This document shows positions 2,375-33,867 of a stretch of DNA of 33,867 nt, in pieces; within the stretch, counting starts at the first letter, position 1; the number at the start of each line of letters is the position of its first letter. A program made the translations under genes and the position numbers. The DNA comes from Thermotogae bacterium (lineage in GTDB: Bacteria > Thermotogota > Thermotogae > Mesoaciditogales > Mesoaciditogaceae): contig JALSLY010000079.1 of assembly GCA_026988035.1 (NCBI GenBank), positions 1-33,867 of the forward strand, given 5' to 3'. The notes under the pieces were generated by a model. That model worked only from the letters and a program-made list of their open reading frames with translations. It ran no database searches and was not told the DNA's origin.

Positions 2375-3400
2375 ATGAGATATATAGATATTCGAAGCGA
2401 TACGGTTACTCTTCCAACTCGAAGAATGAGGCAGGAGATGTTTGAAGCCGAAGTTGGTGACGATGTTTACGGAGACGATCCGACTGTAAAAAAATTGGAA
2501 GAACTCGCCGCAAAGAAAATCGGGAAAGAAGCAGCACTATTTGTTCCATCTGGAACATTCGGAAATGAACTTGCTCTTTTTACTCATACAAGGCGTGGGG
2601 ATGAAGTGATTGTTGATAAGAACTCACACATAATGCTACATGAGGTTGGGGCCTCGGCTGTAATTGCCGGTGTGCAGTTACGCACGTATGATTCCAACAA
2701 CGGTATTCCTGATCCCGTTGAAATTAAGTCTTTGATACGTTCAAGCAATATTCATTACCCGCCTACTGCTTTAATTTGTCTCGAGAATCCCAGTGGAATG
2801 GGAACAGTTACAGATATGGATACTTTGAGAGAAATTCATGAAATTGCACACTCTTATAAAATACCAATTCATCTTGACGGAGCACGAATTTTCAACGCGG
2901 CTTGCAGCTTAAAAGTAGATGTCAAAGAGATAGCCATATATGCTGACAGTGTGATGTTCTGCCTTTCAAAAGGTCTTGCCGCACCAATAGGATCGATATT
3001 AGCTGGGACCAGAGAATTTATTGAGAAGGCTCGAAAGGGAAGAAAACTTATGGGAGGGGGTATGCGTCAAGCAGGCATAATAGCTGCTGCTGGCATAGTT
3101 GCTCTTGAAGATATGATCGACAGACTATGTGAAGATCATAAGAATGCCCGCCTTCTTGCTAAAAAACTTGATGGATTTAAAGAAATTGAAGTAATGAAGG
3201 AAAGGCTGCAAATAAATATGGTCTTCTTCAAATTAAAAAAAGAGATAAACGACAGTGCTTTCGTTTCTCATATGTTCCAAAACGGTGTAAAGATTAATCC
3301 TCCAGAGAGTGATGAGTACAGATTTGTTACCAACAAGGATGTTTCAAGAAAAGATTTGGATTTTGTTGTCAAAGCAGTTGGAGATTTTTTGGGTTATTAA
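2375..3400 (+). CDS. ltaE: Low-specificity L-threonine / L-allo-threonine aldolase
   Basis: This 341-residue PLP enzyme of the aspartate aminotransferase fold (beta-eliminating lyase family) splits threonine or allo-threonine into glycine and acetaldehyde. The N-terminal DIRSDTVTLPT signature, the PLP phosphate segment (SGTFGNELA, residues 59-67), D168 and R171 in HLDGARIFN, and the Schiff-base lysine K199 in CLSKGLAAPIG are all present. The released acetaldehyde could be a substrate for the upstream alcohol dehydrogenase and reductase, which is inference from context. A modest SD (GGGTGA) precedes the ATG. The stop codon TAA at 3398-3400 is overlapped by the left direct repeat of an inserted element, so the aldolase was probably once followed closely by the tricorn gene. 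Confidence 0.93.
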   Translation: MRYIDIRSDTVTLPTRRMRQEMFEAEVGDDVYGDDPTVKKLEELAAKKIGKEAALFVPSGTFGNELALFTHTRRGDEVIVDKNSHIMLHEVGASAVIAGVQLRTYDSNNGIPDPVEIKSLIRSSNIHYPPTALICLENPSGMGTVTDMDTLREIHEIAHSYKIPIHLDGARIFNAACSLKVDVKEIAIYADSVMFCLSKGLAAPIGSILAGTREFIEKARKGRKLMGGGMRQAGIIAAAGIVALEDMIDRLCEDHKNARLLAKKLDGFKEIEVMKERLQINMVFFKLKKEINDSAFVSHMFQNGVKINPPESDEYRFVTNKDVSRKDLDFVVKAVGDFLGY

Positions 3401-3475
3401 AATAACTCGCGTTGTGCGTGAGAGTAACGAAAAAAGGTTGGGATGTAACAAAGTTCATTGAAAACAGCATGAATG

Positions 3476-3505
3476 TTGAAAAATTGACAACAGCTCGTGT
3501 AAAAT
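3476..3505 (+). promoter_or_regulatory. Possible promoter inside the inserted element
   Basis: TTGAAA at 3476-3481 and TAAAAT at 3500-3505 are separated by 18 bases. It would drive a short transcript running into the hairpin at 3520-3552 or onward toward tricorn. In AT-rich DNA this match is only suggestive. Confidence 0.25.
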
Positions 3506-3519
3506 AATTTGAACAAACT

Positions 3520-3552
3520 AACTTCAAGGTTTCAAATCTCCCTTGAAGTTTT
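3520..3552 (+). terminator. Hairpin, possible terminator within the element
   Basis: A perfect 10-bp stem (AACTTCAAGG at 3520-3529 with CCTTGAAGTT at 3541-3550) with an 11-base loop is followed by a run of four T at 3549-3552. The stem is AT-rich and the T tract short, so termination may be weak. It is the only terminator-like structure between the aldolase and tricorn genes and lies inside the inserted element. Confidence 0.4.
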
Positions 3553-3592
3553 CATCAAGACATATGAGCTCGCCATCTGAAAGTTTACAAGA

Positions 3593-3663
3593 GTGAGGTT
3601 GAGAGACATAGGATGTGTCGAGAAAGCGAAGCACTCACGGATGAGTGTCTGAGCGTGCCTCAC
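3593..3663. other. Multi-hairpin structured segment
   Basis: An outer helix GTGAGG (3593-3598) / CCTCAC (3658-3663) can enclose two hairpins: GACATA/TGTGTC around a GGA loop (with one G-U pair) and CACTCA (3632-3637) / TGAGTG (3642-3647) around CGGA. The arrangement resembles a small three-way junction. It could be a folded RNA or simply the DNA structure of the element that contains it; no RNA family was recognised. Confidence 0.3.
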
Positions 3664-3710
3664 GATGTGAACTGGAAGATGGATAAACGAGCGAATCGGG
3701 CTTGATAAGA

Positions 3711-3795
3711 CTTCGAAAAAAATTCTTTTATCGCTTGAAAAGCGATGTTTATTTGACAAATTTTCATAGGTTGTAAAGTTGACGCACAACGTGAG
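3711..3795 (-). repeat. 85-bp dispersed repeat, copy 1
   Basis: Read on the minus strand this matches 28253-28337 with 78 of 85 identical positions and no gaps. It starts with CTCACGTTGTGCGTC, which is also the inverted end of the surrounding element, and contains a perfect hairpin ATCGCTT-TTC-AAGCGAT (plus-strand 3730-3746) followed by an A/T-rich tract ending in TCGAAG. It lies directly upstream of tricorn and may affect its expression. Confidence 0.85.
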
Positions 3796-3840
3796 TAAAA
3801 TAAATGGTTTTCTGAAATTTTTCAAAAAGGGGGAGCCATC

Positions 3841-28252: not shown

Positions 28253-28337
28253 CTCAAGTTGTGCGTCAACTTTACAACCTATGAGTATTTATCAAATAAA
28301 CATCGCTTTTCAAGCGATGAAGGGATTTTTTTCGAAG
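28253..28337 (+). repeat. 85-bp dispersed repeat, copy 2
   Basis: This segment is 78/85 identical, gap-free, to the minus strand of 3711-3795. It retains the hairpin ATCGCTT-TTC-AAGCGAT and the element end (CTCAAGTTGTGCGTC). The other end of the 392-bp element is not found here, so this is a partial copy. It lies between the cold-shock terminator and the importer operon. Confidence 0.85.
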
Positions 28338-28342
28338 ATGTC

Positions 28343-28363
28343 ATCCCGGACCTGATCCGGGAT
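28343..28363. repeat. REP-like palindromic hairpin
   Basis: A perfect 8-bp GC-rich palindrome ATCCCGGA (28343-28350) / TCCGGGAT (28356-28363) with the loop CCTGA starts six bases after the dispersed repeat. The sequence pattern is like intergenic palindromes of the REP type in other bacteria. No T tract follows, so it is not a terminator. Confidence 0.6.
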
Positions 28364-28364
28364 C

Positions 28365-28493
28365 TCACACTTGATTCAGCGTAGCAACTTGTTGCGGAAG
28401 TCATGCTATACTTGATACATTTGATAGAGTCTTAAACCGACAAGTCAGAAACGGCCTGTTGTTCTATGATTCTATTGAATGACGCAAGTGTGA
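28365..28493. repeat. 129-bp segment bounded by 9-bp inverted repeat
   Basis: TCACACTTG (28365-28373) is inverted exactly as CAAGTGTGA (28485-28493). The inner sequence contains GCAAC-TT-GTTGC (28384-28395) and no gene. It could be a second small mobile remnant or a chance pairing. Confidence 0.4.
28404..28412 (+). promoter_or_regulatory. Possible extended -10 promoter, importer operon
   Basis: TGCTATACT has a TGn extension and a TATACT -10; no good -35 is seen. It would give a leader of about 125 bases before the permease start. The inverted repeat GCAAC-TT-GTTGC (28384-28395) lies where a regulator could bind. Confidence 0.4.
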
Positions 28494-33629: not shown

Positions 33630-33705
33630 TGGAGCGGCCAACGGGACTCGAACCCGCGACCCTCAGCTTGGGAAGCTGATGCTCTACCAACTGAGCTATA
33701 GCCGC
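33630..33705 (-). tRNA. tRNA-Gly (anticodon CCC)
   Basis: A 76-nt complete tRNA read on the minus strand. The acceptor stem is GCGGCTA/TGGCCGC, the D arm GCTC...GAGC, the anticodon stem TCAGC/GCTGA with loop TTCCCAA (anticodon CCC), and the T arm GCGGG-TTCGAGT-CCCGT. The discriminator is T, as expected for glycine, and CCA is encoded. Confidence 0.95.
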
Positions 33706-33813: not shown

Positions 33814-33867
33814 GAGTGCGTAGCTCAGTGGGAGAGCGCTTCCTTGACGCGGAAGAGGTCGCAGGTT
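33814..33867 (+). tRNA. tRNA-Val (anticodon GAC), truncated by window end
   Basis: The first 54 nt of a tRNA: acceptor 5' strand GAGTGCG, then TA, the D arm GCTC...GAGC, and anticodon stem CTTCC/GGAAG with loop TTGACGC (anticodon GAC, valine). The variable region and the start of the T arm (GCAGGTT) run into the window edge, so the acceptor pairing cannot be checked. Confidence 0.85.

Follow-up and report, generated by a model that had tools for sequence, protein, structure and literature searches.

The 85-bp repeat at positions 28,253 to 28,337 of the window (the whole stretch of 33,867 nucleotides analysed here) appears to be the left end of a gene-less MITE with terminal inverted repeats (TIRs) of the form CTCA..TTGTGCG. 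We consider it probable, at about 85%, that this MITE has an IS4/IS701-like parent and, as the less certain part, that the fold of its interior is kept for the element's own life as DNA. What sets the family apart is its structured core, whose function we infer. MITEs with folding interiors are known, but one can seldom test if such a fold serves the element or its host. The present fold is found many times over, in several genera and within differing ends, with fixed loops and with stems that have been replaced across three families, and thus provides a natural mutational series. With resident copies decaying and lineages remaining foldable, the series lets one ask directly if a transposon retains a DNA hairpin to help itself spread.

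The original prediction rested on a pair of sequences. The plus strand of the repeat matches the minus strand of positions 3,711 to 3,795 at 78 of 85 bases without a gap, exactly as had been counted, and the hairpin ATCGCTT-TTC-AAGCGAT is the same in both copies, as had been claimed. In a search of the 2.04-Mb genome from which the window comes, this pair scored E = 2.1e-29, and chance is excluded as its source. The same search returned 41 matches, of which two adjoin, and the repeat thus occupies at least 40 places rather than two; this is a lower bound, as 40 of 58 candidates were scored. Because so many places match, the pair belongs to a family. Many contig ends of G000 (for example, C5, C19, C40, C59, and C66) have a copy no more than a few hundred bases away, and the family therefore probably breaks the assembly, the real copy number being higher. 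Both window copies are intergenic. Strings of the element sequence were sought in literature text, and none was found.

What is the 85-bp unit? Its 5' edge coincides with the tip of the TIR and its 3' edge with the point at which the interiors of the two elements diverge. The unit is some 50 bp of transposon end followed by the opening 35 bp of a palindromic cassette of about 207 bp inside the element. The suggestion that the unit was itself the mobile core accordingly gives way to one IS-like end plus the beginning of a larger conserved cassette.

Reading the copies together with their flanks revealed that nearly all start at a CTCA..TTGTGCG-like end preceded by an AT-rich flank, and that complete elements have a right end 110 to 704 bp downstream, which is of one of two types, R1 (CACGCACAACGTGAG) or R2 (GTTCGTGCACAATCTGAG). 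The target duplication is AT-rich and 7 to 8 bp long. Exact duplications of at least 6 bp (6 to 8 bases) flank 15 of the 25 listed elements of the window's own genome, as against 0.8 expected, and 12 of 29 elements in a second genome, G004, as against 0.63; the expected values come from shuffled right flanks, and a few elements were listed in both orientations. In a further genome, G002, the gap between the cold-shock gene (csp) and the permease gene has no element, and the gap between the aldolase and tricorn genes holds another, short element of a different type, type B; this is a comparison of gaps, as the flanks have diverged and the empty sites are not exact to the base. Thus the proposed spread, as that of a mobile family, is supported by at least 40 copies, TIRs, target duplications, a parent insertion sequence, and orthologous sites without the element. 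The gap between the aldolase and tricorn protease genes, with a type-A element in the window and a type-B element in G002 (L341), has evidently been struck independently by two element types. We also observed a left end in which no cassette could be recognised (L043) and a TIR-like match lacking the 85-bp body (L126), each possibly representing a further element subtype.

The two window copies differ in their state (Table 1). Copy 2 is complete, with both TIRs and a target duplication on either side, and the aldolase upstream of it is closest to solved L-allo-threonine aldolases, those of Thermotoga; the lineage of the genome looks like Thermotogota. For copy 1, the original prediction that only one end of the element is present was correct: no right end was found within 1,300 bp. 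Its interior resembles that of other copies as far as ..ACCGACA, entering a REP-like palindrome on the way. Since it lacks a right end and the family resemblance is then lost, copy 1 is a dead, one-ended remnant. Neither window copy contains an open reading frame of the size of a transposase.

Table 1. Coordinates of element features and tRNA genes in the window
Feature	Positions	Strand	Remarks
Copy 2, complete 390-bp element	3406..3795	-	both TIRs; target duplication on either side
Copy 2, target site duplication, one side	3398..3405		8 bp, TAAAATAA; overlaps stop codon of upstream aldolase gene
Copy 2, target site duplication, other side	3796..3803		TAAAATAA
Copy 2, right arm including TIR	3406..3523	+	from parent IS 5' end; 82% over 119 bp (L124)
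Copy 2, promoter-like site in IS-derived arm, directed into element	3476..3505	+	TTGAAA-18-TAAAAT; 10/12 consensus match only
Copy 2, palindromic cassette, full length	3541..3747	-	covariance model match, 223.5 bits
Copy 2, hairpin P1	3730..3746	-	terminator-like score on + strand
Copy 2, apical hairpin P2	3632..3647	-	CACTCA-TCCG-TGAGTG
Copy 2, apical hairpin P3	3605..3619	-	GACACA-TCC-TATGTC
Copy 1, left end	28253..28337	+	~50 bp IS-like terminal part and first ~35 bp of cassette; 78/85 to copy 2
Copy 1, terminal inverted repeat	28253..28269	+	CTCAAGTTGTGCGTCAA
Copy 1, hairpin P1	28302..28318	+	ATCGCTT-TTC-AAGCGAT
Copy 1, rest of interior	28338..28447	+	right half and right TIR missing; end approximate, from other copies
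Copy 1, REP-like palindromic module	28340..28367	+	GTCATCCCGGACCTGATCCGGGATCTCA; similar modules inside many other copies
tRNA gene	33633..33705	-	
tRNA gene	33814..33867	+	truncated by window end

A search with the TIR located the putative parent. At one locus (L099) the TIR adjoins a truncated DDE transposase gene and at another contig end (L124) the apparent start of a gene of the same kind. The transposase beside the TIR matches Pfam DDE_Tnp_1; a DDE_Tnp_1 transposase with a Y..R...E......K-type motif (YMNRWKIEVFFKSAK) is a point of likeness to IS4/IS701-like insertion sequences. A full-length relative of 376 amino acids, with the same TIR, is encoded in G007; the best NCBIfam models are IS4 (E 4e-32) and IS701 (E 3e-29), and Pfam DDE_Tnp_1 is matched above its cut-off. 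Because both NCBIfam matches fall below the equivalog cut-offs of these models, we regard the parent as probably a distant IS4/IS701 member. In the arm that makes up its right end, the element has 82% identity, across 119 bp, with the 5' end of the insertion sequence (L124), and at the opposite end its first 17 bases agree with the 3' end of that sequence. No intact parent was found in the own-genome assembly, in which its ends sit at contig ends. The element thus has ends in common with IS4/IS701-like insertion sequences of its own genome and, unlike them, has no transposase; since its ends match, we classify it as a MITE. There is good support for a MITE family with a parent of the IS4/IS701-like kind, and the DDE transposase would cut and paste the MITE.

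The cassette is more widely distributed than the ends. Relatives from the same family conserve only positions 51 to 85 or so of the 85-bp unit, which form the start of the palindrome. Among at most 40 candidates scored per genome, we found 59 cassette stretches in G000, 42 in G001, 58 in G002, at least 42 in G004, 36 in G007, and seven in G005; four other relatives had none. A strict pattern for the apical part had 154 matches in G004. With a covariance model, the cassette was detected in 10 of the class's 103 genomes, among them two from family f6 and two from family f7. The outer ends around it differ, being CTCATGTTGTGCGTGAAC in type A, GGTTCTCATCAGTTT..TGTGGGTAA in type B (about 380 bp), and of a third type in G005 and G007. 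No autonomous type-B insertion sequence was found in the 30 loci examined. Three elements (L219, L208, and L144) are hybrids that have the cassette between a left end of type B and a right end of type A, which suggests recombination between cassettes. Plasmids yielded no cassette match; one viral contig matched a gapped pattern, but on reading its hairpins were absent. The left end, when compared with named genomes other than its own, matched three contigs once each, from unrelated phyla. Many copies in G000 and G002 contain further palindromes in mid-element, including GTCATCCCGGAC..GGATCT, and many of these modules read (C)GTCATCC..GGATCTC. At three loci of G001 (L131, L132, and L342), cassette parts are accompanied by arrays of further palindromic modules of the form GTGGGA..TCCCAC, which contain inner hairpins and occur in both orientations.

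Fifteen cassettes from six genomes fit a common fold of 63 pairs in which 94.3% of cells are paired. Double changes occur in 30 of the 63 pairs as compared with 11.8 in shuffles, none of 500 shuffles reaching the observed number, and when the alignment was slid the proportion of paired cells fell to 34-45%. In the apical part, represented by ten sequences from families f1, f6, and f7, 13 of 16 pairs have double changes (again, none of 500 shuffles). Both apical TCC loops are invariant across these three families while the stems turn over. Among all fetched copies, 63 P2 and 59 P3 hairpins adjoining the TTCGCTTT spacer have a TCC or TCCN loop. That the loops and spacers do not vary suggests that something recognises them.

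The original prediction held that conservation of the P1 stem hints at a selected structure, and the answer depends on the scale of comparison. Within the genome the stem does not behave as a selected one: of 41 P1 stems (two spurious matches having been dropped by eye), 25 are intact, two have a G-T pair, one is compensated, and 13 are broken. Across genera the idea stands, as the cassette as a whole covaries strongly. Indeed, the ratio of compensated to broken cells is 20:73 within G004 and 48:34 between genomes. Since compensation is seen between genomes and decay within them, the fold is kept in lineages and not in resident copies. This pattern does not by itself identify a cause, as both element-level selection and correction templated by the opposite arm would yield retention of the fold in lineages.

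The functionless alternative is that the arms of the palindrome template each other by template switching during replication, the cassette being passive cargo. Swaps from one Watson-Crick pair to another with few G-U intermediates are what such copying would produce, and the P1 loop is inverted (TTC to GAA) in two own-genome copies, a mark of hairpin processes. The loops and spacers, however, are unprotected by arm copying and yet are the most conserved letters across families, and we consider this explanation rather unlikely. Alternatively, the cassette could be a strand-specific structured RNA, regulatory or small, riding in a MITE in the manner of BOX or Correia transcripts. The strong covariation and the constancy of the TCC loops and spacers amid changing stems would fit an RNA, and in copy 2 the promoter-like site aims at the cassette, with P1 terminator-like on that strand. 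But if an RNA were under selection, G-U pairs should be favoured on its strand, and the stems have no excess of G-U over A-C (22 versus 23 cells, or 44 versus 59 in a larger set; two mostly G-U pairs were left out, and the counts are of a few dozen cells), which lowers the RNA reading. In addition, compensated changes are scarce among resident copies, the terminator-like P1 is missing in the one G004 copy scanned, orientation to flanking genes shows no preference in a crude count of open reading frames, and Rfam 15 found only tRNAs in the window and no match for 13 cassette loci at E up to 1. The loop is closed by an A-T or a G-T pair, and this asymmetry between the strands leaves some room for an RNA; on balance we think one unlikely. 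A special case starts from the complement of the RTCC(N)T loops, which fits the A(N)GGA hairpin-loop motif of CsrA/RsmA: copies that keep the promoter, such as copy 2, might transcribe the GGA-loop strand, end at P1, and bind CsrA like CsrB/RsmZ. The element would then spread a regulator sponge through the genome. The csrA gene is present in nine of ten tested genomes with elements and in one of three without, which is compatible with a link to CsrA and not decisive; weighed down by the strand comparison and by the lack of a terminator-like P1 in the scanned G004 copy, such a decoy seems highly improbable.

Two further explanations make the hairpins a unit apart from the MITE or a service to the host. 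A mobile hairpin unit, REP-like and moved by a single-strand HUH enzyme, could have entered IS4-type MITEs; this would account for the cassette being found inside type-A, type-B, and G005/G007-type ends and for the REP-like modules inside copies. No free cassette with a footprint of its own was found, though, and hybrids with a left B end and a right A end (L219) also fit recombination between cassettes, so that we hold this to be improbable. That the hairpins are transcription terminators or insulators serving the host at insertion sites is very unlikely. Terminator-like matches do occur at P1 and P2, and both window copies lie between genes; against this, copies in gaps between divergent genes (12) outnumber those between convergent genes (three) by a rough count in the own genome, the stems decay in place, and the T-run is 8 to 10 bases away from P1 on the cassette strand.

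The balance of evidence suggests upkeep at the level of DNA and of the element rather than a host regulatory RNA. In the explanation that we favour, the interior of the MITE contains a cassette that folds as a single long, imperfect palindrome, with P1 at its front and a pair of apical TCC-loop hairpins; the cassette travels within elements of differing ends and stays foldable between genera. Less certainly, while the element lives the fold may act as DNA, as a cruciform or a hairpin in a single strand, and some protein may read the TCC/GGA loops and the spacers. Selection would act on spreading copies, and resident copies would decay neutrally.

Finally, we compare the family with known systems. 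BOX elements are composed of the boxA, boxB, and boxC sequence modules of streptococci. BOX of Streptococcus pneumoniae is a small intergenic MITE with fixed ends, variable middle modules, and IS-like TIRs (PMC3049150). The present elements resemble it, in architecture only, in their modular interior, predicted fold, and TIRs resembling those of a host insertion sequence (PMC3049150); unlike BOX, they occur in another host phylum and have a core cassette that is common to differing ends and is conserved between families with turnover of its stems. Correia/NEMIS, ERIC, and other bacterial MITEs, which have been reviewed (PMC10969869), are likewise gene-less, TIR-flanked, target-duplicating, AT-rich insertions between genes that fold into stem-loops, a likeness of features. 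REP elements, short palindromes with a CGTC tag at one end, have been reported in Thermotogae as well (PMC3733652), and by eye the GTCATCCCGGAC..GGATCT modules inside many copies resemble them. Unlike CGTC-tagged REPs, in which the palindrome is the defining unit, the REP-like modules here are passengers.
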